Shown: one piece after another, positions 32,001 through 57,006 of the stretch
How the letters are laid out: the number at the start of each line of letters is the position of its first letter
Position numbering within the stretch: position 1 is the first letter of the stretch
Origin: Candidatus Methanoperedens sp.
GTDB lineage: Archaea; Halobacteriota; Methanosarcinia; Methanosarcinales; Methanoperedenaceae
Direction of reading: 5' to 3'
Assembly: GCA_023249105.1 (NCBI GenBank)
Contig: JAHFDG010000012.1
Coordinates: 1 to 64,000, forward strand
DNA: 64,000 bases
Notes under the pieces: model-generated
Told to the model about the DNA's origin: nothing
What the model saw: only the letters and a program-made list of their open reading frames with translations
The model's database searches: none
Translations under genes and position numbers: made by a program

Positions 32001-32009
32001 AATGTCACC

Positions 32010-32576
32010 TCATTGATTTTTTTTCAATTCTTCCTCATTCACGAATTCCAAAAGAGCGGCTGCCGCATGCCTGTAAAAACCGATCCGGTCGTTTTTTTCA
32101 ATATCTTCACAGAACTGCGGAACCCATCTTGAAAAATGCTCGTTCATAAAAGCATTAAACTCTTCATTATATCCCTGATTCTCAAGATAATATAGGAACT
32201 CAAGTTCTACCGCAACATGGTCAGGAAGGTCGCGAAACGTTTCTAAAACCCGAAGCCCCGCTTTATTGTAGCAATCAAGAACGCTAATCGTAGAATTCCC
32301 CATGACTTCCTTCTCCCTATACATTGATTCATAGGGAGGACAGGGTACACTTGGAATAGCGGTTGTGAAAAGTTTTGTATATTCAACAGCCAACATTTTA
32401 TAAAATTCTTCATCGCTCTTTAGCCTGTTTTCATCAAGGAAACGGGCAAAACCTGACTTTGCTCCATTTTCTAGGAATCCAATATCCTTTGAGAAACCAT
32501 TTCTCAGATATCCTACAAATTCCCTTTCAGGCTTATGAAAAATAAGACTGAATATTTTATAGAATTCCTTTTCCAT
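32010..32576 (-). CDS. TorD/DmsD-family molybdoenzyme chaperone
   Basis: At 188 residues the protein is all-helical and shows the family's signature PCPPYESMYREKEVMG (about 95-110) and the C-terminal FYRHAAAALLEFV. TorD-family proteins bind the Tat signal and folding apoprotein of a cognate molybdoenzyme until its cofactor is inserted. It lies two bases after the NrfD gene and 9 before the cytochrome, so it serves the catalytic subunit at 34409-36961. Confidence 0.88.
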   Translation of the reverse strand: MEKEFYKIFSLIFHKPEREFVGYLRNGFSKDIGFLENGAKSGFARFLDENRLKSDEEFYKMLAVEYTKLFTTAIPSVPCPPYESMYREKEVMGNSTISVLDCYNKAGLRVLETFRDLPDHVAVELEFLYYLENQGYNEEFNAFMNEHFSRWVPQFCEDIEKNDRIGFYRHAAAALLEFVNEEELKKNQ

Positions 32577-32578
32577 AA

Positions 32579-33733
32579 TTAACGTTGAGAGGGGAGGAGT
32601 TTCATAAACCTCAACCCTATAATATATGCTAATCCTATTGCTCCAACTACTCCGAGGATAATAGCGACTTCTGCTCCTGATATTGAATATATGGCAGGTT
32701 CACCGTATAATCCCATCATAGTCCTTCCAACTACCTGCTGGGATGGCACAGATTGACCCGGTATCACAAGACTGAACCTTTCTGCGAACACACCAATAAC
32801 AGCTAGCAGTGAAGCTATTTGCACCTTCAGCATCGTCTTCCTTGAAGAGAGGATCAAAATTGGTATCACTGTTCCCATGAATATCTGTATTCCCCAGAAC
32901 ACGAGACTATATGGGCCTGAGAAAAGGAATTTTGACATTTCTCCTCCGCCCATTCCTCCATATGTGCGTACGATGTTTTCAATGAACACAAGGAACAGCT
33001 GAAGCAGCAGGAAAGCTGTAAGATATTTTCCCAATCCTACGACAAGTTTCTCATCCATCTTATACCCAATTAACTTGAATGTAACTGTGAGTATAAGTAT
33101 GAGCAAAGCAACCCCGGATGTCAGGGCTGCCACAATGAAAAGTATCGGGAGAAGCGGTGAGAACCATAGTTCTTTTGCTACTATGAAACCAAATATAGCG
33201 CCAGTTCCTGCATGCACAAATATTGCAAGAGCCGCTGCCAATGCTCCCAGCAGCTTTGTGGTTTTCAATAGATCTTCCCTGAATGTCGTCCAGAGATATA
33301 CACTTGATAGAATAATATATCCAGTATATAAGAATGAATTTACCGCGAACATCGATGTCAGGTTCTCGGGCCCATATAGGAATAGATTTAAGAACCTATC
33401 AGGGCGGCCAAGTTCCCCTAATATGGTTGTCAGGGCTCCGATTATAAGGAGAATTGCAAGGAATATGGAAACCCTTGATACCGGCTTATATTCTTCCTTT
33501 CCGAAAACATAGGTCAGGGATGAGAGCATCAGGGCGCCTGCACTTGCTCCTATGAAAAATATTACCGATGTTATAGGCAGCCCCCAGGGAACAATATTGC
33601 TCGTACCGAAACTTTCATGACCCTGGATCATGCCCTGGATGAATTCATATAAACCAGCGATCATAAATGCTACCAGAATCCCAATTATCCCGTAAAACCC
33701 CACAGATCTTCCTTCGATTTTAGTGTATTCCAT
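32579..33733 (-). CDS. NrfD/PsrC-type quinone-reactive membrane subunit
   Basis: The 384-residue polytopic protein has about nine to ten helices and the NrfD pattern WGLPITSVIFFIGASAGALMLSSLTYVFGKEEYKPVSR near residue 50 and ILGELGRPDRF at about 105. Members bind menaquinol near the outer face and exchange electrons with the Fe-S subunit. It lies between the Fe-S subunit and the TorD-like chaperone with short gaps. It links the extracellular molybdoenzyme to the quinone pool. Confidence 0.92.
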   Translation of the reverse strand: MEYTKIEGRSVGFYGIIGILVAFMIAGLYEFIQGMIQGHESFGTSNIVPWGLPITSVIFFIGASAGALMLSSLTYVFGKEEYKPVSRVSIFLAILLIIGALTTILGELGRPDRFLNLFLYGPENLTSMFAVNSFLYTGYIILSSVYLWTTFREDLLKTTKLLGALAAALAIFVHAGTGAIFGFIVAKELWFSPLLPILFIVAALTSGVALLILILTVTFKLIGYKMDEKLVVGLGKYLTAFLLLQLFLVFIENIVRTYGGMGGGEMSKFLFSGPYSLVFWGIQIFMGTVIPILILSSRKTMLKVQIASLLAVIGVFAERFSLVIPGQSVPSQQVVGRTMMGLYGEPAIYSISGAEVAIILGVVGAIGLAYIIGLRFMKLLPSQR

Positions 33734-33744
33734 GTTCTTACCTC

Positions 33745-34398
33745 CTAATCCAGATAATATACCTGCGGTTCTGTACCAAGGTCAGGGCGAAGCTGATAAT
33801 TCCTCCTGCTCCGCAGCAGCTTTGAGACCTCGCTATCAGGGTCATCAAGGTCTCCGAATGTCCTTGTCCTTGCAGGGCATGCCTGGGTGCATGCAGGCTC
33901 AACGCCATCTGGCGAACCTATTTTTTTCCCTTCAGCCACTGCTTTATCTATCCTGTGACGACAGAAAGTGCACTTTTCAACAATTCCTGAAATCCTCTTG
34001 GGAACGTCGGGATTATGATAATCCTTTTCTTCCTGCTCGTAGAAATTGAAGAACCTCTGCTGGTATGGACATGCTACCATGCAGTATTTGCATCCTATGC
34101 AGCGCTCGTATCGCTGAAGGACAAGACCGTCTTCTCTTTTATATGTGGCATCAACAGGACATACTTTCACGCATGGAGGATGTTCGCAGTGATTGCAAAT
34201 GAGAGGCATGATGCTTGCACTCACATTGGGGTACTTCCCTTTGAACACTGTCACCATACGGTTCCACTCCATAAGCCTTCTTTTCTTGTAATCCTCTGGT
34301 GTGCTTGAAGTCACGCTATTCTCTGCTTTGCATGCAACTGCGCAAGCAGCACATCCCACACATCTATCAAGATCAATGACCATTCCGTATCTTACCAT
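33745..34398 (-). CDS. Four-cluster ferredoxin subunit (PsrB/DmsB/NrfC type)
   Basis: The 217-residue protein carries four [4Fe-4S] sites: CVGCAACAVAC (about 13), CNHCEHPPCVKVCP (about 70), CIGCKYCMVACP (about 103), and the split fourth set CTFC with PACTQACP (about 150-180). It carries electrons between the NrfD subunit and the molybdopterin subunit. The ATG at 34398 is used because GAGGTG at 34405-34410 sits 6 bases before it. No signal peptide is seen, so it is probably exported with the Tat-bearing catalytic subunit. Confidence 0.92.
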   Translation of the reverse strand: MVRYGMVIDLDRCVGCAACAVACKAENSVTSSTPEDYKKRRLMEWNRMVTVFKGKYPNVSASIMPLICNHCEHPPCVKVCPVDATYKREDGLVLQRYERCIGCKYCMVACPYQQRFFNFYEQEEKDYHNPDVPKRISGIVEKCTFCRHRIDKAVAEGKKIGSPDGVEPACTQACPARTRTFGDLDDPDSEVSKLLRSRRNYQLRPDLGTEPQVYYLD

Positions 34399-34408
34399 AA
34401 ATTTCACC

Positions 34409-36961
34409 TCACGCCGGGTAAACCTTTACCATGGTTGCATTCGTACAGCTCTGCGCAGATATTACGGCGGAGAGGTTTGCCATTATCTCATTGGGATTAG
34501 CCCCCAGCCCTTTAGCATATCTGCCGTAGTTCCAGTGTCCGTGCTCGAACGGGAAAACAACCATCCAGGGAGGGTTCCCCGGATTTATCACAGCCATCAC
34601 CTTGATTTTCCCTATCGGGGATTCAACCCAGACTTCATCTCCGTTCTTGATTCCCAGTTCTTCCGCTGTATCGGGATTAAGCTCCACCCAATTATTCCAG
34701 CCTCTTCCTACAACTATCCCGAACCTCTCCTGCAGCCACTGCACATTTGCGCCCCTTCCTTCGGCATGGGTTATCATCTTAGGAGAACTCATATGAAGAG
34801 GGAATCCTTCATCTTTACCCGCGAACTGTGGTTCTTCATAATGCGGGTATGCAAAGAGTTCAGGAGATTTCAGTTCGCTTTTCAGGATTTCCTTCTGCTT
34901 ATCAGTAAATCCTTCCAGTTTTGAACTCCTGAATTCGAATTTACCCGATTTTGTTTTGAGGAGTTTATCCTTGACGGGGTCTGTAATGACCTTTGTTTCG
35001 ACTTCTTTCCCATCCTTAACTTCTTTTTTCACTTCTTCTTTCTTTTTCATCTCCTTGTTGTATCCTGTGCCATCCCATTCATAGAATTTTCCATTTGATA
35101 AACGGTAGAGATATGGCTTCTTATACCATGCTCCTTTTTCAGCCCATGAATCAAAGCCATTAACTCCATTATCTCCCGGGGTTTTTTCAAAGCCTTTTGA
35201 TATTTCGCGAAGCATGTTCTCATGGTTGCCAAGTTTCGTAAAATACTCACCCATTTTTCCGCCCATTCTCTTCCCCAGGTCTATTATTACATCCACGGAA
35301 TCCCTGTTATTATATATTGGCTGAATTACCTGTGCTCTAAATCCAGTAACAGGATAACCTGTACTTGCATATACTGCCATATCCTGTCTTCTCTCAAGGT
35401 AATAGGCATCAGGCAATATGTAATCCGCATAAAGAGCTGTCTCGCTCAAATAACTTGAAGTCTCGACTATGAATACATCTTTAAAGGCTTCCCTTGCCCG
35501 CTGGGGATTTGGCATTGAGAACAAGGGATTTGTGTAATAGGTGAACATCATACCCAGTTTATAGGGGTCACCCTTTGCGTGATGATCCGGTACATTCTGG
35601 TACACATTGCTGGCAATCGGCCATTCATCGCTTTTTGCTTCATCTATTCTTGCAAGAGTATGCGCTTTGAAATCTTTATCTACTTTTTTGGCGACATCAT
35701 CCATATAATCGGCGTCTTTTAAAGAAATACTTGCATAGGGCACACCCATCTGGTACATCACTCCGCCGACAGCGAACATGTTTCCAACAAGAGCATTCAG
35801 AGCATGTATCGCCATATGGTTATAGGTGCCATTGGTATGGGCGCCTGCTCCTCTCTCACCCGCTGCTATAGCAGGTTTAGTTGTAGCGAATTCCTTTGCA
35901 ATCCTTGTTATCCTTTCACCAGGAATGCCTGTGATATCACTTGCTTTATTTGCACCGAAATCCTTAAGGACATTATTCCACCAGTCTATCAGACCATAAG
36001 TCCAGGTCTCTTCAAAATCTTCTTTTGCGACCGTCTCTCCATGATTGAACTTTTTTCCCTTCACCTTGAAGTCGCCTACAAAGCTCCTGTCCCATAGCCC
36101 TTCGGTAAGAATGACATGAGCTATTCCGAGTGCAAGCGCACCGTCAGTTCCTGGTTTAACAGGCAGCCACTCATCCGCCTTTATAGCTGTTGTTGAGAAT
36201 CTTGTGTCTATCATGACCTGCTTTGCCCTGACAGGTCTTCCCCTTCGCATGTGCGCCCATTTCTGGAGCATCAGGTTTGTGGGTCTCCAGGCTTCAAGGG
36301 TAGCTCCGCCGAAGTTGAGCACATAATTACAGTTCTCCCAGTCATAGGCGCAGTAATCATCCGTCCCGTCTATGCAAAGCCTTGCTTTTTTGCTTGCGTC
36401 CGCGCATATCGAGCTATGACCAATGTTATTGGGGGTTCCGTACAGAGTTGTGAATGTTCCCCATACCGATCCTGCCCTTCCTTGGTTCCTGCCGCTGAGG
36501 AAAGCTACAGTATGGGATTTTCCTTCATTCCGTATCTTATTCAATCGTGCAGCTATGTCATTGAGAGCTTCATCCCATGAGACTTCCATGAACTTTGGAT
36601 CTTCGTTCTGACCCTTATTCGGATTTGTCCTCTTAAGTGGCGATTTCACCCTGTCCACATCGTAAAGTAACTGTAGCCCTGCATATCCCTTGGGGCAAAG
36701 CTTGCCGTTGCTGTAAGGATGATCCGGGTTCCCCTCAATCTTTACAGCTTTTCCATTGACAACCCTAACTTTTGTTCCGCAACCTGCTGGACATTGAATA
36801 CAAACGCTTGAGACCCATTTTTCCTCCCTTACCGCTTCCATGCCCTGTGCCAGGGCTTTAATAACAGGCTGGTCAAAGGAAATTACTCCAACTGTTGCTG
36901 CACCAGCTACGCCTGTAGCTTTCAAAAACGTTCTTCGGTTCATTTTTAATTCTAAAGCCAT
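34409..36961 (-). CDS. Tat-exported molybdopterin oxidoreductase, PsrA/ArrA-like (operon 1)
   Basis: This 850-residue catalytic subunit begins with a Tat signal (MNRRTFLKATGVAGAA at residues 7-22). It carries the N-terminal [4Fe-4S] motif CIQCPAGCGTKV (about 53) with the last Cys in KLCPKG. The Mo ligand appears to be Cys in IGHSSICADASKK (about 190), as in the polysulfide/arsenate/thiosulfate group. A lysine- and glutamate-rich insertion near 640-680 is unusual. It has a dedicated tatA, Fe-S subunit, NrfD, TorD and cytochrome c. The set-up fits an extracellular terminal reductase. The preceding loop reads SGRNQGRAG, which does not match the RGRY motif I recall for ArrA, so arsenate respiration is only one option beside selenate, polysulfide or thiosulfate. 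Confidence 0.88.
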   Translation of the reverse strand: MALELKMNRRTFLKATGVAGAATVGVISFDQPVIKALAQGMEAVREEKWVSSVCIQCPAGCGTKVRVVNGKAVKIEGNPDHPYSNGKLCPKGYAGLQLLYDVDRVKSPLKRTNPNKGQNEDPKFMEVSWDEALNDIAARLNKIRNEGKSHTVAFLSGRNQGRAGSVWGTFTTLYGTPNNIGHSSICADASKKARLCIDGTDDYCAYDWENCNYVLNFGGATLEAWRPTNLMLQKWAHMRRGRPVRAKQVMIDTRFSTTAIKADEWLPVKPGTDGALALGIAHVILTEGLWDRSFVGDFKVKGKKFNHGETVAKEDFEETWTYGLIDWWNNVLKDFGANKASDITGIPGERITRIAKEFATTKPAIAAGERGAGAHTNGTYNHMAIHALNALVGNMFAVGGVMYQMGVPYASISLKDADYMDDVAKKVDKDFKAHTLARIDEAKSDEWPIASNVYQNVPDHHAKGDPYKLGMMFTYYTNPLFSMPNPQRAREAFKDVFIVETSSYLSETALYADYILPDAYYLERRQDMAVYASTGYPVTGFRAQVIQPIYNNRDSVDVIIDLGKRMGGKMGEYFTKLGNHENMLREISKGFEKTPGDNGVNGFDSWAEKGAWYKKPYLYRLSNGKFYEWDGTGYNKEMKKKEEVKKEVKDGKEVETKVITDPVKDKLLKTKSGKFEFRSSKLEGFTDKQKEILKSELKSPELFAYPHYEEPQFAGKDEGFPLHMSSPKMITHAEGRGANVQWLQERFGIVVGRGWNNWVELNPDTAEELGIKNGDEVWVESPIGKIKVMAVINPGNPPWMVVFPFEHGHWNYGRYAKGLGANPNEIMANLSAVISAQSCTNATMVKVYPA

Positions 36962-36962
36962 T

Positions 36963-37139
36963 CTAAGCCTCCTTTTTCTTTAAATCAATAGCTTTTAATT
37001 CGTTCTCAGTTTCCATTCTTGCCTTCTTGAATTCACCTGTCGCTTTACCCATAGAGCGTGCCAGCTCAGGTAACTTGCTTGCCCCGAAAAGCAGCAGGAT
37101 AACAACAAATATAATCACCATTTCCTGGGTTCCTATCAT
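36963..37139 (-). CDS. tatA: TatA translocase subunit (copy 1)
   Basis: The 58-residue protein is a Tat[42 protein letters not shown], one membrane helix, the FGxxKLP hinge and an amphipathic helix, then a charged tail. It is the first gene of molybdoenzyme operon 1. Its last codons AAGGAGGCT double as the ribosome site for the catalytic subunit, which starts one base after its stop. TatC is not in the window. Confidence 0.95.
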   Translation of the reverse strand: MIGTQEMVIIFVVILLLFGASKLPELARSMGKATGEFKKARMETENELKAIDLKKKEA

Positions 37140-37189
37140 AATTTCTCACATCCAATCCAAAGCTAATTATTATTAACATAAAGCAATGC

Positions 37190-37224
37190 ATATATATAAA
37201 AGATTTTTAGAAAAAAATTTCTAA
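37190..37224 (-). promoter_or_regulatory. Promoter of operon 1: TATA element and inverted repeat
   Basis: On the minus strand TTTATATATA (37190-37200) is a strong TATA box about 50 bases before the tatA start. Ten bases further upstream lies the inverted repeat TTAGAAA-AAAA-TTTCTAA (37207-37224). Its core GAAAAAAATTTCTA (37210-37223) recurs at 50114-50127 ahead of the second molybdoenzyme operon. It may bind the response regulator encoded next door at 37281-37913. Inference only. Confidence 0.5.
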
Positions 37225-37280
37225 TTAATTGATTTTACAATAAGAAAAATTCCAATCATTGACTTTTGCCTGGAGAAAAA

Positions 37281-37913
37281 TCAAAGCTCGGCGCTTCTCA
37301 ATGCTTCAAAGAGCTTCTTTCCGGCAGGCGTCAGCATATAAAATTTCTCCCCGTCCTGCTCTATTATCTTATGTACCTTCATCACTCTCATATGGAAGTT
37401 TAACTTTGTGGCATCTTCAATACCAAGCCCGCGCTGGATCTCTGTGAACTTGAGTTTACCTGCTTTATAGAGAAGTTTTACCGCATCCTTCCTTGTTTGA
37501 TTTGAGATTGCCTTGATCAGGTCAGAATCAAAGATTTGGGGCTTATCAAATTCCGCCTCTGCAAGAACCTTTCGTATTTTTGTCTGGACTTCATCTATTT
37601 TAAAAGGTTTTGTGATGTAATCTGATGCCCCTGCTTTCATGGCTTCAACTGCATTATCAACAGTTGCAAATGCAGTAATCAGGATTACACGGGTGTGGGG
37701 TTTTATACGTTTTGTTTCCCGTAACACTTCCATTCCCCCGACAACAGGCATGATGAGATCGGTCACAACGATATCAAAATCTTTTTTCCCGATTTTTTCA
37801 AGCCCTTGTTGACCATTCACGGCAGAATCTACTAAGAACCCTGCATCTTCCAGTACTTCTGCTAATCCATCCCGAATTTCCTTTTCATCCTCAATTATTA
37901 AGATGTTCTTCAT
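37281..37913 (-). CDS. DNA-binding response regulator (receiver plus winged helix)
   Basis: The 210-residue protein has an N-terminal receiver (ILIIEDEKEIRDGL; phospho-acceptor Asp in DIVVTDLIMP at about 51; ILITAFAT; DYITKPFKID). A C-terminal winged helix follows (SNQTRKDAVKLLYKAGKLKFTEIQRGLGIEDATKLNFHMRVMKVHKII) of the archaeal type. It begins five bases after the histidine kinase gene. Together they would control the adjacent respiratory operons. It ends about 140 bases before tatA on the same strand. Confidence 0.93.
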   Translation of the reverse strand: MKNILIIEDEKEIRDGLAEVLEDAGFLVDSAVNGQQGLEKIGKKDFDIVVTDLIMPVVGGMEVLRETKRIKPHTRVILITAFATVDNAVEAMKAGASDYITKPFKIDEVQTKIRKVLAEAEFDKPQIFDSDLIKAISNQTRKDAVKLLYKAGKLKFTEIQRGLGIEDATKLNFHMRVMKVHKIIEQDGEKFYMLTPAGKKLFEALRSAEL

Positions 37914-37917
37914 AACA

Positions 37918-39672
37918 TCAAAACGGTAATCTTATTGTAAACGTTGTTCCAGTTCCAATTTCACTTTTCACGTCAATCGAACCATTGTGCTTTTTAATGA
38001 TCCCATAGCAAATCGATAATCCAAGTCCGGTTCCTTCACCCGGCATTTTGGTCGTAAAAAAGGGATCAAAAATTTTACCAATGTTATCATGCGGAATGCC
38101 GCAACCATTATCGGTTATGCTGATCTCAATGTGGTCATTTTTTGCTTCAGTTTTAATAATAATTTCTCCGTCCAATGTTATGGATTGGATTGAATTTGTC
38201 AGCATATTCATGATCACCTGCTGGATTTGTTCCCTATCAGCCATTATAAGCGGAAGAGGCTCCAGGTCAGTAGTTATTTTCGTACGGTCTAACTGAGGTT
38301 CAAGGACATTCAGCACATTATCTATCTCCCTATTTATGTCTACCGAACTTATTTTTGGCTCTGACTGGCGCGCAAATTCAAGCAGTCTCTTTACAATACG
38401 AGCTGCCCTATTAGTTTCATTATTGATGATTTTAAGTCTGCTGTCAGTTTTCTCATCCCACGTTTTCTTCAACATTATCTGGGTGTGAAGGGATATAGTG
38501 GTCAGAGGATTGTTTATCTCATGAGCTACCCCTGCTGCCAATTTTCCCAGCATGAACAGCTTTTCTGATTGCATGAGCCGCTTTTCAAGATTTGCCATCT
38601 CCTTTTGCTCTGTAATATCTTTGATAACCAGTACATTGCCAGCATTCAAACGATCCTGCAATGGTTTATTACTTATAAGACCGGGGAAAGTCGAACCGTC
38701 TTTTCTCTTAAAAACGTTCTCACCATCCAGTATTTCCAGATTATCGCCCTCGCTTGCCGAAGAATAATTCAGCAAATTGATATTACTTCCGGCAACGTCC
38801 TCAAAACTATAACCAAATATTTTTTGAGCCCCACTATTCCAGGAAAGGATCTTTTTTTGTGAATCTATCAATATGACAGCATCACTTATACTATCAACGA
38901 GATTTTTATATCTCTCTTCTGATTTACGCAGTTCGTTTATGCCGTTATTCAGGTTAAATGACATCTCGTTGAACGCTTTTGAAAGAATATTTATTTCATC
39001 TGTTGAGTCGGTTTTTATCTGGTATCCGAGATTCCCACGGCCTATTTCTTCAGTCCCTTTTATCAGGGAACGTATCGGTCTTGTCAAATAATTTCCCGCT
39101 ATATATGCCATTAAAACACCTATAGCCCCTACAAAAAGAGTAAGTGTGATTATTGCACTGCTTGTCTGGTTTATCTTTTCATGCATGGACGTTTCATCCA
39201 TTCCGATATGGACAAAGCCTGCCCTGCCATCCAGAATTGGCGCAGTAAAATCAATGACAATACCATCACCTGTATCGAGAAGATGGGGATTATTTCCCAA
39301 ATCTATCTGAACAGTAAGAAGGTCGCCTGGGAAACCGCCTTCAAATGTATGCGCCAGCACTTTACCCCTCGCATCGGTTATATAAATATATTTAACATCT
39401 TTTTCTGTCTTTTTTGTATTCTCAACGAGCCTGTGGACATATACCGTATCCTCGATCAGTATGGATTCTATAATGCTTGTTGCCAGATTCCTTGATATGA
39501 CCTGTCCTCTCTCACGAAGCTCTTCTGACAATGTCTTTGTGAGGCTTATTTGCACAAAAATGGTAGTCAGCACTCCAAGAAGCATTATGATAACGACTAT
39601 CCAGACAACAAAATTCCTTACTAATCCCCCGCCTATGAAATTATTTATTTTATTTATCTTTTTTCCTGGCAT
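37918..39672 (-). CDS. Membrane sensor histidine kinase (dCache/sCache-HAMP-PAS-HisKA-HATPase)
   Basis: The 584-residue kinase has a first membrane helix at about 20-43 and an extracellular sensing domain to about 178. The second helix TLFVGAIGVLMAYIAG is followed by HAMP (TRPIRSLIKGTEEIGRGNL), PAS (about 265-375), the phospho-His region GVAHEINNPLTTISLHTQ (about 390), and an ATPase domain with NSIQSI, DNGCGIP and GTGLGLSICYGIIKKHNG. Its start overlaps the preceding periplasmic-binding-type lipoprotein by 23 bases. The pair resembles the accessory binding protein plus kinase sets (AioX/AioS, ArrX/ArrS, TtrS) that control molybdoenzyme operons. Confidence 0.93.
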   Translation of the reverse strand: MPGKKINKINNFIGGGLVRNFVVWIVVIIMLLGVLTTIFVQISLTKTLSEELRERGQVISRNLATSIIESILIEDTVYVHRLVENTKKTEKDVKYIYITDARGKVLAHTFEGGFPGDLLTVQIDLGNNPHLLDTGDGIVIDFTAPILDGRAGFVHIGMDETSMHEKINQTSSAIITLTLFVGAIGVLMAYIAGNYLTRPIRSLIKGTEEIGRGNLGYQIKTDSTDEINILSKAFNEMSFNLNNGINELRKSEERYKNLVDSISDAVILIDSQKKILSWNSGAQKIFGYSFEDVAGSNINLLNYSSASEGDNLEILDGENVFKRKDGSTFPGLISNKPLQDRLNAGNVLVIKDITEQKEMANLEKRLMQSEKLFMLGKLAAGVAHEINNPLTTISLHTQIMLKKTWDEKTDSRLKIINNETNRAARIVKRLLEFARQSEPKISSVDINREIDNVLNVLEPQLDRTKITTDLEPLPLIMADREQIQQVIMNMLTNSIQSITLDGEIIIKTEAKNDHIEISITDNGCGIPHDNIGKIFDPFFTTKMPGEGTGLGLSICYGIIKKHNGSIDVKSEIGTGTTFTIRLPF

Positions 39673-40579
39673 CGCTGACTACCTTTTTCATCTCTCTTAC
39701 ATTATCATAGAGACTGTCATTAGCTTCTGAGAACCTGTCTATCATAATACGGTCAAGTATCTCTTTTCCCTTTTTGTCCTCATGCATTTGAAGAAGAATT
39801 TTACGCAACTTCTCTTTTAATGCCGGGTCAATGTCCTTTGAGATAACTATAGGAGGAATGCCGTATGGAGGGGATTTACTTATTATTTTAGTTCTTGAAG
39901 TAAATCTTGGATCGGTTGCATTTTTAAAATCCCATACCAGACTATCCACTGCAGCACCGTCAACCATCTTCTCAGCTACCGCCTGAATGGATTTGTCATG
40001 ACTGTAGGTGAAAAACGTAAGCTTGAAAAACGTCTCCGGATTCTCACCCATCTGCGCTATCATATACTCAGGTGATAGCTTCCCTGAATTGGAGAGCGGG
40101 TCTGTGTAGGCAAAGGTTTTACCTTTCAGTTCTTTGAGTGAATTGATACTGCTGTCCCCTGGCACTATAATATATGAATAATAGCGAGTTTCTCCTCGAA
40201 CTTCGGGCACTGCAAGGAGTTCCATGCTAAACTGGTCTTTCCCCTCAATATATGCGAGACTGCATACAAAAGCTGCATCCACGCTATTTTTTCGCACTAA
40301 GTCGTTCACTTCCTGATATGTCTTACGCTGGACAAGCTTGACCGGAACACCCATTTTCAAAGAAATATAATCGAACATTTCCTGATAATATACTAGAGTC
40401 TCATCTGGTGAAATGATTGCAGATACTGCGATCCTGAGGCTCTGTGAATCTGAATTGTCGCCAACGTCATTGCTCCTGTTTGAGAGATTCACTTTTGTCG
40501 CTTTTTCAGTGTCCAAACATCCGCTAGTAATTACAAATAAGAGTATCGTCAGCAGAATTACGCTTTTTTCAGGATGCAT
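39650..40579 (-). CDS. PhnD-like substrate-binding lipoprotein (sensor accessory)
   Basis: The 309-residue protein has a signal with lipobox TSGCLD (Cys about 21) and a PhnD-type solute-binding domain: LRIAVSAIISPDETLVYYQEMFDYISLKMGVPVKLV, then DAAFVCSLAYIEG, LKGKTFAYTDPLSNSGKL, and DGAAVDSLVWDF. No ABC permease or ATPase is nearby. It precedes a histidine kinase and response regulator with overlap, the layout of the accessory oxyanion-binding proteins AioX and ArrX and of the TtrS input domain. It probably presents an oxyanion ligand to the kinase outside the cell. The ligand is unknown. Confidence 0.85.
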   Translation of the reverse strand: MHPEKSVILLTILLFVITSGCLDTEKATKVNLSNRSNDVGDNSDSQSLRIAVSAIISPDETLVYYQEMFDYISLKMGVPVKLVQRKTYQEVNDLVRKNSVDAAFVCSLAYIEGKDQFSMELLAVPEVRGETRYYSYIIVPGDSSINSLKELKGKTFAYTDPLSNSGKLSPEYMIAQMGENPETFFKLTFFTYSHDKSIQAVAEKMVDGAAVDSLVWDFKNATDPRFTSRTKIISKSPPYGIPPIVISKDIDPALKEKLRKILLQMHEDKKGKEILDRIMIDRFSEANDSLYDNVREMKKVVSDARKKDK

Positions 40580-42866: not shown

Positions 42867-42911
42867 GAAAATTAGGAATAAAAAATTCTAAGCATCATCA
42901 AGTAATAATTT

Positions 42912-44726: not shown

Positions 44727-47700
44727 TCAAACCTTTTGCAGTTTCACTTTGGTATCATAGAACACAGCGCTTCCGCCGGCCATGTCTGAAAGGCATGTAT
44801 TCTTCAGGTAAGGGTCAAGGAGCATTGCGGCGTTGGCGTGGATGCCCATGCCCCTTCTCTCATCGCCTTTTATTGTGTTGCCGTCGATGACAATGTCCCG
44901 CGAACCACTTGCCCAGTTGCCGAATCCCAGAACAAAAGTCACGACTCCGGGAGAAATTGTTTGAGTTACCTTGACCTTTCCTTCAATCGGTTTCTTTCCA
45001 GAAGCCTGCAAGTCCCATTCACCTGCGATGTTTGTGGGAGATGATACCTTGACCTTATCCCCGTCTTTCAGACCGAGCCTGGTGGCATCCTGTTCGCTTA
45101 TAAGAATGGCGTTCTCAGGCAGGAGAGATAGCATCCAGTAATCCACGTTCGTTCTGGACTTTGTCTGCGTGATATCCCTCTGTGTAATAAGCTGCAGGTC
45201 ATACTCAGGTGCGAACTTCAATTCATTGCCCTGGGAATCAGTTATCGGCATAAGGGATGGAAGACCATTGAACGACTTTCCTGTAATTGCGTTCTTTGTG
45301 GTAGCTGTCTTTTCCTGGTACATATTTATCAGGTTCTGACCGGATTTGCTGTACGTGTTCTTTATCCAGCCTTCGACCTTTCCCTTCTTGCCTGCCTCAA
45401 AGTCCTCAAAGGCGCCGCCGCGGTTGAGAACATATACGACCTTCTTCCAGTCTTTACCCGCAATCTTCTGCCACCGCCCGACATCGAATACTGTCTTTGG
45501 CAGATGCCTTCTTGCTTTTGTGAAAAGCTCGACCTCTGCATCACTGGCTTCGGGGGCTTTTGCGCTTGCAGCAACGTTTGCCACCATTCGTATGTAGTAG
45601 TCGTCCGGATGCTTCAAGTCCACACCTGTTTCGAACCCGTCCTTACCGAACCCGGGCAGGTTGGCCTTTTCGGCGATCCCCAGAAGCATTGCTTCAAGAC
45701 CGTGCGGCATCTCTTCGCCAAACACTTTGACTGTTTCAACAAGCGGAGGAGCAACAGGGTTCCTCACAGGCTGTACCTTGTAGATGAAGCTTGGATGCGA
45801 GCCAGGGAATTCCCACCGCTCAAGGTATGTTACATCAGGGAAGATGTAATCCGCATAAAGCGAAGTCACGCCCACTGTTATGTCATTGTATATGAACAGG
45901 GGTATTTTGTTTATATCAGAGAGTATCTCTATGTTGGTCTGCCCCCCGGGCAATGAATATGTGGGAGCTCCCATGTAATTTATGAGGATTTTGACCGGGT
46001 ACGGGTACGCATCGCCCACGCTCGGGATTATCTCCTGATATACGTCACTGCTCAGGTAATACCATGGACGCTTTGCCGGGTATCCGCTAAAGAGCGTAGT
46101 ATTCTCGTATTTAATACCGTAGCGTATGCTGTTTATGCCAAAGGCTGTTATCTTACCTGGCTGCTTTCCAATATCATACGCCCCGCTGCTCGTGCTGTAC
46201 GTGGAAAGCTGCGAAGAACCGCCAAGCCAGCTATTGTTGCCCAGCATCGTGTTCAGGAGCATCCATGAACCTACGTTGTAGAAACCATTCGTGTGCTGGC
46301 TTACCCCTCTGTGGACGTCCACGACAGCCTTTTTGCCGTGGGAGGTGAATTCAGCTGCCACTGCTGCAACATCTTCTTCCTTCGCTCCGCATATCTCTGC
46401 CCATTCCTTGATGCTCTTTTTCTGTGCTTCTTCTTTCACAAGCTGCATGGCACTCTTTACCGTAATGTCCTTGCCGTCCTTGCCTTTGAGCGTTGTAGAA
46501 ACGAACAGGTCGCCGACTACTGGAGCAGTTTCATCATACGGGTCAAATGCTACCGGTTTTCCTCCTACGAGCGTGATGAGTGGGTCCATCTCCACTTCTT
46601 CTTCCTTGTCCCCGATTTTCTCTTTCTTCTTTACCGCCGCTATGCCAAGGTCAGAGCCATATAGCAGTTTCCCCGGCTTTCCATCCGTCACAACAACAAG
46701 CCATGCGGCATTTGAAAACGTGGGCTCTTTCCCATCCGCTGCCGCTTTCTTGTTGGAGTTTCGTAAGTATTTCTCATCATATTTTTTATTTTCCACCATC
46801 CAGCGCAGCATTCCCCAGGCAAAAGCCGCATCTGTCCCGGGTTTTGTGGGTATCCATTTCCATGCCTTGGAGGCTTCTTTTGTAAACCTTGGGTTGAGCG
46901 TTACGAACTTGAGCCGCCCGGTGGAAAGCCCATCCATTACTTTCATAGCCCTGTTGGTGGGACCGTAATTTCCCTCAAAGAGCGTCGTGCCTACAAAGAT
47001 TATGAACTCGGAATTCGCTTCATCTGCCTGGAAATAGAATTTATCGCCGCCAGTCCACTTGTATTTCTTATCCTTGGCATCGTAGAGGTACTGCTCGCTC
47101 ATAGCCTTGCCTGTAAAGTACAGCGAACCCTGACATACCGTGGTATGACCGTGGGCGTTCACAGTGCCGCATGCAGCGGTAAATCGCTTGATCAGGTCGC
47201 TCCTGCCGCCTTTTAGCCTGCCCCACATGAACACTAACTGGTTATTCTTTGGACCAAGGTCAGGGTAGTCGGGGTCGATGAGTTTATCGATATTAGCCTT
47301 GAATTTCTCTTTGAATGCGGTTATGAGTTCTTTCTTCTTGTTAGCATCTTTCTCTGCCCAGATTTTGTCTATTTCTGAGGACATTTCTTTTGATATCTTC
47401 GGGTCACGAAGCGCCACCACATCCTTAAAGCCCTCTACATTGCGGTCTTCCTCACCCGGGACATGACTGAAAAGTTTTCCTCCATTCACTATTTCCTCGA
47501 TCGCCTTGTCGAAATCGATGGTCATCCATTTGTTCTCTCCGCGCTTCCCTGCCCTCTTTAAGACCTTTGTTATCCTGTAAGGGTCGTAGTAGGTCTGTAT
47601 CCCTGCCTGTCCCTTGGGGCACAGCCCGGCATCAATGACCGCCGCTTTTTCAAGAGGAGTTATATAATTGATGTGAGGATAAAGGTTCCAGGGAGAATAT

Positions 47701-47948
47701 GGATTGCCGTCTATTTTCGCAATATGGCCGTCCAGCGTTTTTACTTTAATCGGGCAGCCTGTGTTGCACTGCTGGCAGCTTGAGTACAATATATTCTCTG
47801 GTTTTGACAGCTCATAGGCAAAACGCTCAGGTTCAGCTCTTGCGATATTTACCAGGAATTCCTGGTGTCTATCGAAAAGCGAAGTTCCAAGTATTGCGCC
47901 TCCCACGACTGCTGTTGATCTTACAAAGTCCCTTCGTGTAATCTGCAT
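44727..47948 (-). CDS. ttrA: Tat-exported TtrA-like molybdopterin oxidoreductase (operon 2)
   Basis: The catalytic subunit has 1073 residues, near the length of tetrathionate reductase TtrA (about 1020). A Tat signal (ITRRDFVRSTAVVGGAILGTS) opens it. The cluster motif CQQCNTGCPIKV (about 58) with LCPKGQAG follows. The Mo ligand is probably Cys in AHGHTTVCQGSLYFTGKAMSEQ (about 271). Extra charged insertions (about 170-220 and 420-470) enlarge it. The gene order tatA, ttrB, ttrC, ttrA equals the ttrBCA order of enterobacteria. Selenate or arsenate reductase activity remains possible because the TtrA clade includes archaeal enzymes of mixed substrate. Confidence 0.85.
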   Translation of the reverse strand: MQITRRDFVRSTAVVGGAILGTSLFDRHQEFLVNIARAEPERFAYELSKPENILYSSCQQCNTGCPIKVKTLDGHIAKIDGNPYSPWNLYPHINYITPLEKAAVIDAGLCPKGQAGIQTYYDPYRITKVLKRAGKRGENKWMTIDFDKAIEEIVNGGKLFSHVPGEEDRNVEGFKDVVALRDPKISKEMSSEIDKIWAEKDANKKKELITAFKEKFKANIDKLIDPDYPDLGPKNNQLVFMWGRLKGGRSDLIKRFTAACGTVNAHGHTTVCQGSLYFTGKAMSEQYLYDAKDKKYKWTGGDKFYFQADEANSEFIIFVGTTLFEGNYGPTNRAMKVMDGLSTGRLKFVTLNPRFTKEASKAWKWIPTKPGTDAAFAWGMLRWMVENKKYDEKYLRNSNKKAAADGKEPTFSNAAWLVVVTDGKPGKLLYGSDLGIAAVKKKEKIGDKEEEVEMDPLITLVGGKPVAFDPYDETAPVVGDLFVSTTLKGKDGKDITVKSAMQLVKEEAQKKSIKEWAEICGAKEEDVAAVAAEFTSHGKKAVVDVHRGVSQHTNGFYNVGSWMLLNTMLGNNSWLGGSSQLSTYSTSSGAYDIGKQPGKITAFGINSIRYGIKYENTTLFSGYPAKRPWYYLSSDVYQEIIPSVGDAYPYPVKILINYMGAPTYSLPGGQTNIEILSDINKIPLFIYNDITVGVTSLYADYIFPDVTYLERWEFPGSHPSFIYKVQPVRNPVAPPLVETVKVFGEEMPHGLEAMLLGIAEKANLPGFGKDGFETGVDLKHPDDYYIRMVANVAASAKAPEASDAEVELFTKARRHLPKTVFDVGRWQKIAGKDWKKVVYVLNRGGAFEDFEAGKKGKVEGWIKNTYSKSGQNLINMYQEKTATTKNAITGKSFNGLPSLMPITDSQGNELKFAPEYDLQLITQRDITQTKSRTNVDYWMLSLLPENAILISEQDATRLGLKDGDKVKVSSPTNIAGEWDLQASGKKPIEGKVKVTQTISPGVVTFVLGFGNWASGSRDIVIDGNTIKGDERRGMGIHANAAMLLDPYLKNTCLSDMAGGSAVFYDTKVKLQKV

Positions 47949-49082
47949 TTAATCCACCTCTTTAAATAACGATGTTATTGTTTTTTTTTCAATCAGTACC
48001 CTGTTTCCGATGATAATCAGAAGCGTTGCAAGAGCTAGAGCAAAAACGAACTCCAGCCATTCCATTGTACTTGGGAAATAACTGAAAGAAAGCCTTGAGT
48101 GCACAAATGCGGTCTCAAGTCCGGCAAGTTCCGGGACAGCCAGTCCGGGGATTACAATATTCAACTTGACACTTAAGGAGGATATTACTACAAAAAACGA
48201 GGCAAGAGCTACTGCCCATGCTTCCCGTCTTTTAAAGATAAGCAAACCCGCCGGCACAAGTAGGCTGCCAAATACGAAGAATCCCCAGAATACCCAGGCA
48301 AAAGGCCCGAATAATACGAGATCGATACTTGCTATATCTGCCGGTATCTTGGAATAATATATAGATAGGATATCGGAGAATTCGAGCAAGCCATAAAATA
48401 CTATTAAAAGAAGTATTGCACTGCCCATACTCCTGATGTTTTCTGCGTATTCATGTTTTTCTGGATTAAGTACGTATGCTGTAAAGGCAACAAGTGCAAT
48501 CCCCGAGAGCAGAGCAGCAGCAAGGAACATTATTGGCAATATCCCTGCATTCCAGTAGGGTCTTGCTCCAACTACCCCATATAATGCCCCGCCTCCTATC
48601 TCAAATGCGACTGCAACTATCATTCCTAATGCGGCAAGCTTTTTCACGTTCCTGCTTTCATCCGAAGTGAGCCAGAGCATTGCAATGAGTATAATCAGAT
48701 ATAGAGGATAGAGAATAAACATCCAGCCCATTACGGAACCCGTATTCAGGTGAAGCGCAGAGATGAATACCCTGAAAGGATGACCGATGTCTGCAAAAAC
48801 AAGGATCAAGCCGGGAATTCCGGTTGATAAAGCAATTATGAGTCCAAGTCTTTTTACTTTTTCAAGGCTTTTAATTTCAAAAACATAAGCTGCTGCTGAG
48901 AGAAGGAATGAACCTGCAGACAATCCCATAAAATATGCATAGGCAGCAACTCCCAGCCCCCAGGGAATATAACTCCCGATGTTTGCTTCAAGGTTCCCTG
49001 AGATGGCTTTCATAAACATCCCATAAGCTCCTATTATCAATGCAATTATCGCAACCCAGAATATTGGTTTCTCAAGTTTCAT
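47949..49082 (-). CDS. ttrC: NrfD/TtrC-type quinone-reactive membrane subunit (operon 2)
   Basis: The 377-residue polytopic protein has about nine helices with the NrfD pattern WGLGVAAYAYFMGLSAGSFLLSAAAYVFEIKSLEKVKRLG (about 42-80) and FADIGHPFRVF (about 100). It lies between the Fe-S and catalytic genes, ending one base before the latter begins. It is expected to oxidise menaquinol and pass electrons to the TtrB-like subunit. Confidence 0.9.
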   Translation of the reverse strand: MKLEKPIFWVAIIALIIGAYGMFMKAISGNLEANIGSYIPWGLGVAAYAYFMGLSAGSFLLSAAAYVFEIKSLEKVKRLGLIIALSTGIPGLILVFADIGHPFRVFISALHLNTGSVMGWMFILYPLYLIILIAMLWLTSDESRNVKKLAALGMIVAVAFEIGGGALYGVVGARPYWNAGILPIMFLAAALLSGIALVAFTAYVLNPEKHEYAENIRSMGSAILLLIVFYGLLEFSDILSIYYSKIPADIASIDLVLFGPFAWVFWGFFVFGSLLVPAGLLIFKRREAWAVALASFFVVISSLSVKLNIVIPGLAVPELAGLETAFVHSRLSFSYFPSTMEWLEFVFALALATLLIIIGNRVLIEKKTITSLFKEVD

Positions 49083-49093
49083 TTTTTTCCCTC

Positions 49094-49798
49094 CTACAAT
49101 AAATAAAATACCTGCGGATTTGTTCCTTTTTCTTCTTTGAGCCTCATTACCCTGGGATTTGCAATCAGTCTGCTCACCATACTTTCCGGGTCGTTTTTAT
49201 CCCCGAAGTAATTCACCCTGGCTATGCATGTTGTAACGCATGCAGGCAGCATTCCTACATTCAATCTATGTATGCAATAATGGCACTTTCTTGCATTTCC
49301 AATAGGCGATTTGCCGTCTTTTCTCTCCCATTTCTTTTCATACTCAAAGTTGGCTATCTGTTCATAAGGTTGAATGGCTGGGGTTTTTTTGGTATAATAT
49401 TCACCGAAGTCAGAAGTCCTGGCGCTGTACGGGCATGCAACGATACAATATCTGCATCCTATGCATCTATCATAATCCACGACAACAATCCCATCAGCAT
49501 TTTTCCATGTAGCGTTCACAGGACATACCGGGGTGCAGGGGGGGTTATCACACTGCATGCACGGTCTTGGCACGAATCTCCTGCCCACGTTGGGGTATTT
49601 TCCGAGCTCCTCCTCAAGTACAGGACGGTACACCACACCAGGCGGAAGTTTGTTTTCAGAAACGCATGCTATTGTGCATGCATGGCATCCAACACATTTC
49701 TTTAAATCTATAACCATTACCCAATGCCGTTCGTTGACAGGTTTTTCAAGGGCTCTGTTTAAATCACCCTGCATGGAAACCAAAATATCTTCACTCAT
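49094..49798 (-). CDS. ttrB: TtrB-like four-cluster ferredoxin subunit (operon 2)
   Basis: The 234-residue protein carries [11 protein letters not shown] (about 35), [14 protein letters not shown] (about 80), [12 protein letters not shown] (about 113) and the split set CHYC with PACVTTCIA (about 172-195), enough for four [4Fe-4S] clusters. It has an N-terminal 20-residue extension without signal peptide. It starts two bases after the tatA stop. Electron carrier between TtrC-like and TtrA-like subunits. Confidence 0.92.
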
Positions 49799-49799
49799 T

Positions 49800-49964
49800 T
49801 TATTCCCTCACCATTTCTTTCATTTCATTTTCAGATTCTATTCTTGCTTTCTTGAATTCTCCAGCCGATTTTCCAATAGAGCGCGCTAACCCGGGAAGCT
49901 TGCTCGCACCGAAAAGCAGAAGAACTAATGCAAAAACTATTATAATTTCCTGTGTTCCTATCAT
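49800..49964 (-). CDS. tatA: TatA translocase subunit (copy 2)
   Basis: The 54-residue TatA begins [47 protein letters not shown] and is close in sequence to the copy at 36963-37139. The ATG at 49964 fits family length; an upstream frame would add 13 unrelated residues. It opens operon 2 and lies two bases before ttrB. A second dedicated TatA for a second enzyme is unusual for one genome region. Confidence 0.95.
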
Positions 49965-50078
49965 AATACCCTCTATTAGCATTATCAATAAATCTCCATC
50001 CACCCGTTTTACCAGTATGATGCGGAATTCTTTATAAGATTTTATTATAGATATGCTAATAATGATGGGTTACAATGG

Positions 50079-50325: not shown

Positions 50326-51192
50326 ATGAAAAAACAATTAGTGGTTATGTTTTTCCTGATCATTTCTGTCATTGCGGCAGGATGTATAGGAGACACCACA
50401 AAAAACATAAAACAGCAAACAGAACTATCTGGTGTTCTGAAGCTTGACGGGTCAACAACCGTCTATCCGATAGCAAAAACAGCCGCGGAAGAGTTTATGA
50501 AACTCCACCCTGCAGTTACTATCGATGTACAGCAAAGCTCTACAGGTGAAGGGCTTGTAAAATTTTTAGCAGGCGAGACTGACATCTCGGATGCTACGCG
50601 GGCGCCCAAGGATCAGGAGTATGGAGATGCAAATAAAAAGGGCATGAGACTTCATATGACTATTATATCAAATGATGCCGTTGGTATAATTGTACATCCG
50701 AGCAACCCGCTCTCTGACCTTACGACCGCACAGTTAAAAGCCATCTACTTTGATGGGACAATAACCGACTGGAGCCAGCTTACAAACGGCACAAAGAAGG
50801 GTAAAATAAAAATATACAATACAGACCCCAAGATTTCAGGAACTGCTGAACTCTTTAACACTAAGATCCATGGTCAGGCGGATAAGCCCTATGTAAACGG
50901 GACAAAAATAATACACCCCACTCCCCTGATGATACCCACAATAAGGGACGACCCTGATGGTATCGCCTACACACCGGTGAACTGGATAAATAGCGATGTC
51001 AAGATGGTGAAGGTTAATGGAGTGGCACCGACACAGAAAACAATCCTTGATACATCATACTTGCTGTCAAGAAAGATGTATATGATAACCGACGGGGCGC
51101 CCAATGGACTTAAAAGAGAATTTATAAGTTTTATTTTAAGTGAACAGGGACAGGGCATCGTTCAAAAAGAAGGATTCATTCCAGTAACGTGA
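50326..51192 (+). CDS. PstS-like phosphate-type binding lipoprotein
   Basis: The 288-residue protein starts at ATG 50326, with GAGGT seven bases upstream. A signal and lipobox (VIAAGCIGD, Cys about 19) are followed by a PstS fold: LKLDGSTTVYPIAKTAAEEF, VQQSSTGEGLVKFLAGETDISDATRAP, and ISGTAELF. PstS proteins bind phosphate through such SSTG and TAE loops. No PstCAB follows; the next gene is a membrane receptor. It may act as a sensing protein for phosphate, arsenate or molybdate-like oxyanions instead of a transporter. Confidence 0.85.
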   Translation: MKKQLVVMFFLIISVIAAGCIGDTTKNIKQQTELSGVLKLDGSTTVYPIAKTAAEEFMKLHPAVTIDVQQSSTGEGLVKFLAGETDISDATRAPKDQEYGDANKKGMRLHMTIISNDAVGIIVHPSNPLSDLTTAQLKAIYFDGTITDWSQLTNGTKKGKIKIYNTDPKISGTAELFNTKIHGQADKPYVNGTKIIHPTPLMIPTIRDDPDGIAYTPVNWINSDVKMVKVNGVAPTQKTILDTSYLLSRKMYMITDGAPNGLKREFISFILSEQGQGIVQKEGFIPVT

Positions 51193-51203
51193 GGCGATAA
51201 ACA

Positions 51204-52013
51204 ATGAAAATAATGTATAAATTAATGAGCGGGTTCATATTACTTGTCCTGTTATTCTCAATAGCAGGAGCCGTGGTTATTTCAAACCTGAAAGTGATAG
51301 ATACTGTGAATGCACAGGTCGGCACTGACTTCGCAATAAACCAGTATGCAACAAATTATGAAAGAGGTGCCGGAAAAGTGCAGGTTGGAACTTACCTTTA
51401 CGCCCAGGGCAGCCAGGCAATGGGCAAACAACTGATTGATGAAGGAAAAGATGCCATGGCACAGAACAGGGAGAACCTGAAGAATACACTGAAAGACGAA
51501 GCCGCAAAAAAGGAACTGGGCGAGATAGAAAGAATTGAAAAACTTGCAATAGAAGCATCAAACGAAGTTGTTGTAAGAGTAAAAAATCCGGACAAGGATA
51601 CCAGCATACAGGAAAAGCACCTTAAACAGGACATGCATTTCCTGGAAGCAAGAGTGGATGCATTGAATCTTAAGCTTGGAACCTTTGTGGATAAGACCCA
51701 GGAAGATACTGCATCATCCCTTGAAGTGGCTCAAAAGAGCGGAAACCAGACGACTCGCATAACCCTCTACGCAATAGCAATATCGCTATTAATTGCCCTG
51801 ATCGTCTCGTTCATAGTGGCAAAGAAGATAACCGACCCGGTGAAAAATCTTACCAATGTTGCCAACAGGGTGAGTAAAGGGGACATGACAGAGAAGGTCG
51901 AAGTGTCGTCTTCGGATGAGATTGGAGACCTGGCGGAATCCTTCAAGCGCATGATAAATGCCTTTAAAGTGATGGAAGCAATGAGCAAAGAAGAAAGTGC
52001 TCCAAAAGGGTGA
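51204..52013 (+). CDS. Membrane receptor with four-helix sensor and HAMP, no output domain
   Basis: The 269-residue protein has a membrane helix at about 8-28, an extracellular helical bundle (30-185) like the 4HB_MCP domain, and a second helix (AISLLIALIVSFIVAKK, about 192-208). A HAMP domain (ITDPVKNLTNVANRVSKGDMTEKVEVSSSDEIGDLAESFKRM) follows. It stops about 20 residues later; neither a methyl-accepting signalling domain nor a kinase is present. It follows the PstS-like gene by 11 bases and precedes a 74-residue gene by six. Output must come from a partner, possibly that small protein. Confidence 0.85.
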   Translation: MKIMYKLMSGFILLVLLFSIAGAVVISNLKVIDTVNAQVGTDFAINQYATNYERGAGKVQVGTYLYAQGSQAMGKQLIDEGKDAMAQNRENLKNTLKDEAAKKELGEIERIEKLAIEASNEVVVRVKNPDKDTSIQEKHLKQDMHFLEARVDALNLKLGTFVDKTQEDTASSLEVAQKSGNQTTRITLYAIAISLLIALIVSFIVAKKITDPVKNLTNVANRVSKGDMTEKVEVSSSDEIGDLAESFKRMINAFKVMEAMSKEESAPKG

Positions 52014-52019
52014 TCAAGA

Positions 52020-52244
52020 ATGGCAATAAGTGATCAGGTAATTAAAATACTGGCTGAGGACATGGGCCCATCAGCCCAACCTTTTCTGGAGAGACAGTGC
52101 AAGTTCCACCTGAACAAAGACCCTGTGGCTCTTACGAGTTCGGATATCGAGGAACTGGCAAAATGGGTTCAAATAAGCTCAAAGTTAACACTTGGAGATG
52201 ATATTGCGAATAAGTTAAAGACAAAGGTTCTGGCTCTTAAATAA
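52020..52244 (+). CDS. Small protein downstream of the receptor
   Basis: The 74-residue protein begins MAISDQVIKILAEDMGPSAQPFLERQCKFHLNKDP and is helical with one Cys. The sequence DIEELAKWVQISSKLTLGDDIANKLKTKVLALK suggests a compact helical bundle. It is the last gene before a strong terminator and lies six bases after the receptor. Not recognised; it could be the cytoplasmic partner of the output-less receptor. Confidence 0.65.
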   Translation: MAISDQVIKILAEDMGPSAQPFLERQCKFHLNKDPVALTSSDIEELAKWVQISSKLTLGDDIANKLKTKVLALK

Positions 52245-52261
52245 AGCAAATTGATTAAAAT

Positions 52262-52300
52262 GTTCTCCCGCAGATAAAGTTGCGGGAGAACCTATTTTTT
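52262..52300 (+). terminator. Intrinsic-type terminator hairpin
   Basis: GTTCTCCCGCA (52262-52272) pairs perfectly with TGCGGGAGAAC (52281-52291) around an eight-base loop, followed by CTATTTTTT. It closes the PstS-receptor-small protein operon. It is the clearest terminator in the window. Confidence 0.8.
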
Positions 52301-53400: not shown

Positions 53401-53489
53401 AACTTACTTTTTCGTGGCAAAATTCAACTTTTTTTGATATTGGGGTTATGCGCTTATTTATATCGGCATCTTTAATCCGAGCATATGAA

Positions 53490-55531: not shown

Positions 55532-55906
55532 ATGATTAATCAATGTTTATGTGAATCCAAAACCGCAAAACTATGTTGCCCGGGCGATGAAAAACTTCGG
55601 AATGAATGGCTTTTTAGTCTTGAAAACGAACACGAACCATTAAGGCAGACATCAAAGGAAATTGCAAAGAAATTGAAGCTCCTCTCAAATTCCAACCGCC
55701 TGGAAATTCTGTTGATGCTTGAGCAGCGGGAACACTGTATGGATGAGATTGCACGAAAACTAAATTCTAAAAAACCGGCTATTTCCTATCACCTGTCACT
55801 CCTGAAAAAACACGGTATGGTTTGCGTAAAAAAACGCTCCCGGTTCACCTTTTATTCGCTTTCTCACAGCGGTAAGAAGGCTATCGCGGCTTTTGAAATG
55901 ATATAA
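55532..55906 (+). CDS. arsR: ArsR/SmtB-family regulator (copy 2)
   Basis: The 124-residue protein has an N-terminal Cys-rich stretch (CLCESKTAKLCCPGDE). The winged helix then reads LKLLSNSNRLEILLMLEQREHCMDEIARKLNSKKPAISYHLSLLKKHGMVCVKKR. It lies directly before the arsenite transporter gene and 42 bases after the suf scaffold. It should regulate acr3; the several Cys could bind As(III). Confidence 0.88.
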   Translation: MINQCLCESKTAKLCCPGDEKLRNEWLFSLENEHEPLRQTSKEIAKKLKLLSNSNRLEILLMLEQREHCMDEIARKLNSKKPAISYHLSLLKKHGMVCVKKRSRFTFYSLSHSGKKAIAAFEMI

Positions 55907-55968
55907 TTCAAATTTTTTTGAATCCATATAGGGGGTTTTATTTCACAAAGAATACATGAACGGAAATA

Positions 55969-57006
55969 ATGGATGAAAAACTCTCGTGGATTAGCAAATA
56001 TCTGACTTTCTGGATTCTTCTTGCCATGGCAGGCGGAATAATTGCCGGCGCTGTCTATCCGGAGATAGCCGCCATACTTGACGCTGTCCGCATCGAACAG
56101 GTTTCGCTTCCTATCGCTATCGGGCTTATCTGGATGATGTATCCGCCCCTTGCCGGCGTGAAATACGAGGAACTCTCAAAAATGAGGAAGCAGGGGAAAG
56201 CTTTGACCGCATCAATTATCCAGAACTGGATTATCGGTCCCGTTCTCATGTTCGCGCTTGCATGGCTCTTCCTCCCGGACATGCCCGAATACCGCATTGG
56301 ATTGATACTGATAGGTCTTGCCAGATGCATTGCCATGGTGCTTGTCTGGAACCAGCTTGCTGGCGGGGATAACGACCTGTGTGCTGTTCTTGTAGCTATG
56401 AATTCCCTCTTCCAGGTTGCGCTTTATTCGGTGCTCGCGTATGTATTCATCACAGTACTGTCCACATGGATTGGCGGTGCGGGAGCCGGGGCAATCGTAA
56501 ATATATCCATATGGCAGGTAGCAAAGGCAGTTTTCATATATCTGGGCATTCCTTTTATTGCAGGCATAATAACGCGGTCAGTTCTGTTAAAAAAGAAAGG
56601 GAAAACGTGGTATGATGATGTGTTCATGAAAAAGCTCGGCCCGACAGCGCTTATAGGACTGCTATTCACAATCATAGTCATGTTCTCTCTGAAAGGCGAA
56701 AAGCTCGTCGAGCTCCCACTTGATGTTTTCAGGATAGCAATACCGCTGCTTGCTTATTTCTCCATAATGTTCGCCTTATCCTTTTTTATGTCTTACAGGC
56801 TGGGATTTTCCTATGACCAATCCACGACGCTTGCTTTCACTGCGACAAGCAACAATTTTGAACTTGCAATCGCTGTAGCTATCGCAGTGTTCGGCATCGG
56901 CTCAGGCGAGGCATTTGCTGCTGTGGTAGGTCCGCTCATTGAAGTGCCCGTAATGCTGGGATTGGTGCATGTTGCAAGGAGAGCAAAGGTGATGTGGTTT
57001 GAATAA
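55969..57006 (+). CDS. acr3: Arsenite efflux transporter Acr3
   Basis: The 345-residue, ten-helix protein is of the bile acid/arsenite permease superfamily. It has the functional Cys in [22 protein letters not shown] (about residue 112) and the conserved Glu in [16 protein letters not shown] (about 302). Acr3 pumps out As(OH)3. It is next to ArsR and converges on the hgcAB genes. It supports arsenic exposure as a selective force for this region. Confidence 0.95.

Follow-up and report, generated by a model that had tools for sequence, protein, structure and literature searches.

The locus at 50,326 to 52,300 of a 64,000-nt stretch of Candidatus Methanoperedens sp. DNA (contig JAHFDG010000012.1, positions 1 to 64,000, hereafter the window) raises the question of how a membrane receptor that ends just after its HAMP domain could pass on a signal. 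Its gene lies between those of a binding lipoprotein and of a 74-residue protein, and the initial annotation had proposed a new kind of sensor acting through this small protein. The three genes were compared with known families, structures and related genomes.

Gene order and the lipoprotein

The three genes, termed here the triad, lie on the forward strand. The first (50326..51192) encodes a 288-aa substrate-binding lipoprotein of the PstS family, the second (51204..52013) the 269-aa receptor and the third (52020..52244) the 74-aa protein, with spacers of 11 nt between lipoprotein and receptor genes and 6 nt between receptor and small gene. An intrinsic-terminator-like hairpin (12-bp stem, 6-nt loop, T run) follows on the same strand at 52262..52291; five terminator-like sites were observed in the region versus 1.9 expected from shuffled sequences. 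The initial annotation had named all these parts, namely a PstS-like lipoprotein at the start, a receptor stopping directly after HAMP, a 74-residue protein downstream and a strong terminator closing the unit, and each was recovered.

The lipoprotein carries a lipobox (...VIAAGC), matched Pfam PBP_like_2 at 2.3e-35 and passed the PstS family model TIGR02136 with 209.9 bits (cut-off 206.6). Neither in the window nor in the Methanoperedens loci did PstC, PstA or PstB genes adjoin the unit or any ABC permease or ATPase gene stand beside the lipoprotein. A different PstS gene, followed by PstC, was found elsewhere in the same genome. The Arg found in the ligand loop of classical PstS is missing, and lipoproteins of the triad clade have TDPKISGT at this place. 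An attempt to read the ligand from these residues was dropped, because other PstS-like proteins of the genus also lack that Arg.

Identity of the small protein and the receptor

No Pfam or NCBIfam family matched the 74-aa protein. An AF2 model built from 30 aligned members reached a pLDDT of 94 and was compared by Foldseek with 350,542 PDB chains, of which the top match was Af1502, the STAC type structure (5A1Q; probability 0.95, TM 0.61/0.65, E 0.47). Three helices were assigned in the model (DSSP) versus four in the Af1502 crystal, a two-hairpin four-helical bundle. The family profile likewise matched Af1502 best among PDB entries (E 0.077), and hhalign aligned the family with relatives of Af1502 at E 6.4e-5 (prob 64), over only the 25 N-terminal columns that bear the GP motif. 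A second match of the small protein in its own genome (C122) was rejected as a chance match within a 279-aa frame.

Af1503-like receptors have no effector, HAMP is their sole cytosolic part and they are often coupled to STAC proteins of 60-90 residues with an LGPx(x)A motif, which joins helices h1 and h2 (PMC4834066). Sequence searches do not link Af1502 to other STAC proteins, owing to divergence (PMC4834066). The 74-aa protein has the size and the motif of a STAC protein (MGPSA at residues 15-19; LGPSA or LGPAA in relatives), and the coupling to a receptor gene is seen both in the 6-nt gap of the window and in 34 tabulated loci. The small protein is thus read as a predicted STAC protein and the receptor as Af1503-like; because of the Foldseek and PDB profile E-values, the homology to Af1502 is argued from fold, motif and synteny together.

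Two hydrophobic segments were found in the receptor (about 1-33 and 182-213), followed by HAMP at residues 205-252 (Pfam, 6.8e-14) and a tail of 17 residues before the stop. A Pfam scan detected no kinase (HisKA/HATPase) or MCP signalling domain, as had been claimed from the sequence, and the receptor thus has the Af1503-like architecture of an extracytoplasmic sensor between two TM helices with HAMP as the sole cytosolic domain. The best PDB matches of the receptor profile were Af1503 HAMP structures (E 3.6e-7), which, as HAMP is a broad family, is a weak test when taken alone. The receptor model (pLDDT 83 overall, >90 across most of the sensor) predicts the sensor as a four-helix bundle running on into the TM helices. 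Its fold matched NarQ, Tsr-type chemoreceptors and LytS of the XylFII-LytS complex (LytS TM 0.84-0.85 to the target). Sensors of this type adjoined a binding-protein gene in nine of ten cases; other receptors carry other sensors.

An end so soon after HAMP, with no output domain beyond it, could mean that a chemoreceptor or kinase gene has been cut short or is decaying, and evidence of truncation had been named beforehand as refuting the unit. However, the receptors of 34 loci from several organism groups end at the same point, 9-23 residues after HAMP, and HAMP and tail are highly conserved. Since almost every intact stand-alone homologue of the small gene (34 of 36) directly follows a HAMP-only receptor gene, the receptor is considered not truncated, and decay is scarcely credible as an explanation.

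The post-HAMP tails of the window and the distant locus L083 share 71% identity, as against 30% for the two sensors. Between the window and L051, a locus without STAC, tail identity is 12%; this locus comes from a different family of the order and has, after its PstS and receptor genes, a gene for an unrelated 55-aa protein (1740-1907) in place of STAC. The unrelated third gene and unconserved tail of L051 hint, and no more, that the tail is a candidate docking site for STAC, and part of its conservation is possibly ordinary HAMP conservation.

Occurrence in other genomes

A search of 100 related genomes for the receptor family gave full-length relatives that likewise end after HAMP in six further Methanoperedens genomes, in a second genus of the family and in a second family of the order. 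In five of the other Methanoperedens genomes the triad has 76-94% identity, the same order and similar gaps, and in the sixth the identity is about 46-65%. The PstS-family lipoprotein is the fixed first gene of the triad in seven Methanoperedens genomes; in an eighth genome (L083) the first gene encodes a divergent PBP_like_2 protein.

Profile searches with the small protein recovered relatives across Halobacteriota. After removal of duplicates, 36 intact stand-alone STAC copies were counted in Methanoperedens, other Halobacteriota and Chloroflexota MAGs, of which 34 have the HAMP-only frame -3 to 45 nt upstream; five of these paired loci (one Methanomicrobiales MAG, four Chloroflexota MAGs) were fetched by name. 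The two exceptions are a STAC gene after another membrane protein (L049) and one between a chemoreceptor and CheA (L118). The search for the gene order in other archaea, suggested with the initial annotation, thus showed the PstS-receptor-small protein order to be kept across the triad-bearing Methanoperedens and the receptor-STAC pair to extend far beyond the genus. The linkage, whose absence was to count against the unit, is conserved.

A plasmid search gave no match, and neither did a scan of genome contigs with a single protein sequence; a scan with an alignment of Methanomicrobiales members gave ten loci. Weak matches were dropped, namely one in G006 (C49), those inside frames of about 810-860 aa in one other family of the order, and L150 and L151, which fall in unrelated genes. 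Two partial loci (L107, L108) and a broken pair (L106) were placed outside the intact set. The receptor of L048 contains two unread bases and for this reason appears frameshifted.

Several further arrangements were recorded. The exception L118, from a Chloroflexota MAG, has its STAC-like gene (5944-6231) between a multi-HAMP chemoreceptor gene and a CheA-REC gene, then CheB. STAC-like domains form the C-terminal part of 299-358 aa proteins in L101 (6036-7112), L104 (5960-6967) and L105 (6188-7087), with no Pfam domain in the two of these that were scanned. In L047 (9981-10835) and L048 (6107-7219), two genomes of the family, the gene after STAC encodes a member of one protein group of 284-370 aa, for which Pfam gave no significant match. 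Roadblock genes adjoin the pair in L085, L048 and A. fulgidus.

The triad is therefore a real, conserved signalling unit, of an already described type. The part of the initial proposal by which the signal passes through the small protein stands as the best model, and the linkage is conserved; the claim of a new kind does not stand, because the small protein has Af1502 as its best fold match and the receptor HAMP is closest in sequence to the HAMP of Af1503, a pair described in 2015 (Korycinski et al., as summarised in PMC4834066). The locus of Archaeoglobus fulgidus was itself recovered (L152), with the 68-aa Af1502 overlapping the end of the 338-aa Af1503. In both systems HAMP is the only cytosolic part of the receptor, STAC with an (L/M)GPx(x)A motif comes directly after, and the neighbours are transport-related. 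They differ in the sensor, which in the triad is a predicted four-helix bundle with no sequence similarity to that of Af1503, and in the first gene, a PstS-family lipoprotein in the triad versus an MgtE-type transporter in the Af1505-Af1502 operon. Judged from sequences and models, the triad would add to the pair of PMC4834066 a fixed PstS-type partner, a LytS-like four-helix-bundle sensor, an arsenic-linked context and occurrence in Chloroflexota.

Genomic context, ligand and proposed working

The predicted genes of the window form an anion respiration island. On the reverse strand, 31428..40579 holds ArrXSR-like regulators (PhnD-type lipoprotein, HAMP histidine kinase, response regulator), TatA, an ArrA-like molybdopterin reductase, Fe-S, NrfD-like and TorD-like proteins and one more gene. 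With 468.6 bits against the ArrA model cut-off of 1600, this reductase is taken as a divergent relative of ArrA; arsenate-type reductases were reported earlier in Methanoperedenaceae (PMC7327174). A second molybdopterin reductase cluster (44727..50003, reverse strand) has NrfD-like and Fe-S subunits and its own TatA; its best NCBIfam model is TtrA, far below cut-off, and the TtrA-like reductase stretch spans 44727-49798. Just before this cluster lie genes for MoaA, a MoeA-like protein and a MOT1 molybdate transporter (40759-44078). An ArsR-type regulator and an ACR3 arsenite exporter are encoded on the forward strand at 55532..57006. A 128-aa protein with weak TBP-like similarity (53397-53783) follows an ArsR gene, and SufC/SufB-like genes (53845-55489) are flanked by two ArsR genes.

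The unit is most probably an Af1503-like receptor with a STAC partner and a dedicated PstS-type lipoprotein, working as a ligand-docking relay. The membrane-anchored lipoprotein would bind a small anion, for which a tetrahedral oxyanion (phosphate or arsenate, for example) is the likeliest candidate, and in its loaded state would dock on the dimeric receptor at its four-helix-bundle sensor. The LytS/NarQ fold match and the constant presence of a binding-protein gene in the triad suggest such docking, which has been established or proposed for other binding proteins on sensors of this fold (PMC9769921). The resulting movement may reach the short tail by way of TM2 and HAMP; there the STAC protein would bind or be released and act as the relay towards a transporter or a target in the cytosol. 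Within the unit there is no obvious target.

Several known systems resemble this scheme in part. In SLC5-STAC histidine kinases (CbrA, CrbS), STAC likewise stands between signal input at the membrane and signalling in the cytosol (PMC13022988, PMC7918813), but as a domain of one polypeptide with transporter and kinase, whereas that of the triad is a free protein. The GlnH-GlnX-PknG system of Corynebacterium and Mycobacterium shares a binding lipoprotein, an output-less four-helix-bundle membrane protein and a soluble cytosolic partner (PMC9769921); GlnX, however, has no HAMP and tandem bundles, and PknG is a Ser/Thr kinase, so that the triad is likened to it in working and not in membership. 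A periplasmic binding protein is also the sensor input in XylFII-LytS and in binding protein-kinase systems of the ArrX/AioX type, the receptors of which, unlike that of the triad, have a histidine kinase.

The lipoprotein could instead be an ordinary spare PstS that feeds a phosphate ABC transporter, with receptor and STAC regulating transport and no sensing through the lipoprotein. Transport components are enriched near Af1503-like receptor/STAC pairs, for which STAC was proposed as a regulator of solute transport (PMC4834066), and in L087 and L093 genes for Pst permease, ATPase and PhoU lie just upstream of the pair, with a REC-histidine kinase and a chemoreceptor-like gene after it; the TIGR02136 score also fits such a role. 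The tie to phosphate seen in these two archaeal loci is, however, equally counted for the relay. The triad, however, comes without permease or ATPase in the window and the Methanoperedens loci, and its sensor type is accompanied by a binding-protein gene in almost all cases. The other PstS of the genome, paired with PstC, is likewise counted for a role outside transport. A spare PstS therefore appears unlikely.

As a specific version of the relay, the unit may sense arsenate or another electron-acceptor oxyanion and contribute to the control of the reductases nearby, in the manner of ArrX in arsenate respiration. The two molybdopterin reductases, ArsR and ACR3 of the island speak for this, as do L043 and L044, in which the ArrXSR-reductase cluster directly adjoins the triad, and the affinities of ArrX (arsenate at 1 uM, phosphate at 150 uM; PMC5908839). 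An ArrA-like reductase was present in 5/7 genomes with the triad versus 2/24 without it (hypergeometric P 0.002, uncorrected for phylogeny). Against it, triad and reductase are unlinked in two further genomes, one good genome contains the triad but no such reductase, and the window already contains its own ArrX-S-R. The substrates of the reductases are also uncertain, because their scores fall far short of the curated cut-offs for ArrA and TtrA. Arsenate sensing is a possibility that we hold only tentatively.

For the ligand-docking relay as a whole, a more far-reaching and rather doubtful extension is that the non-transport lipoprotein gives the receptor an oxyanion ligand (arsenate or phosphate), and that free STAC is a diffusible output tuning arsenic-oxyanion respiration in these methane-oxidising archaea. 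We know of no signal for effector-less Af1503-like receptors, which have been used as HAMP models. The unit has its own binding lipoprotein and therefore a testable ligand, and, if the extension were true, no STAC system lacking an effector would have had a known ligand before it. The function of STAC has been described as unclear (PMC7918813, PMC13022988), and its role may be learned in the further contexts offered by the Chloroflexota and Pst-operon cases.
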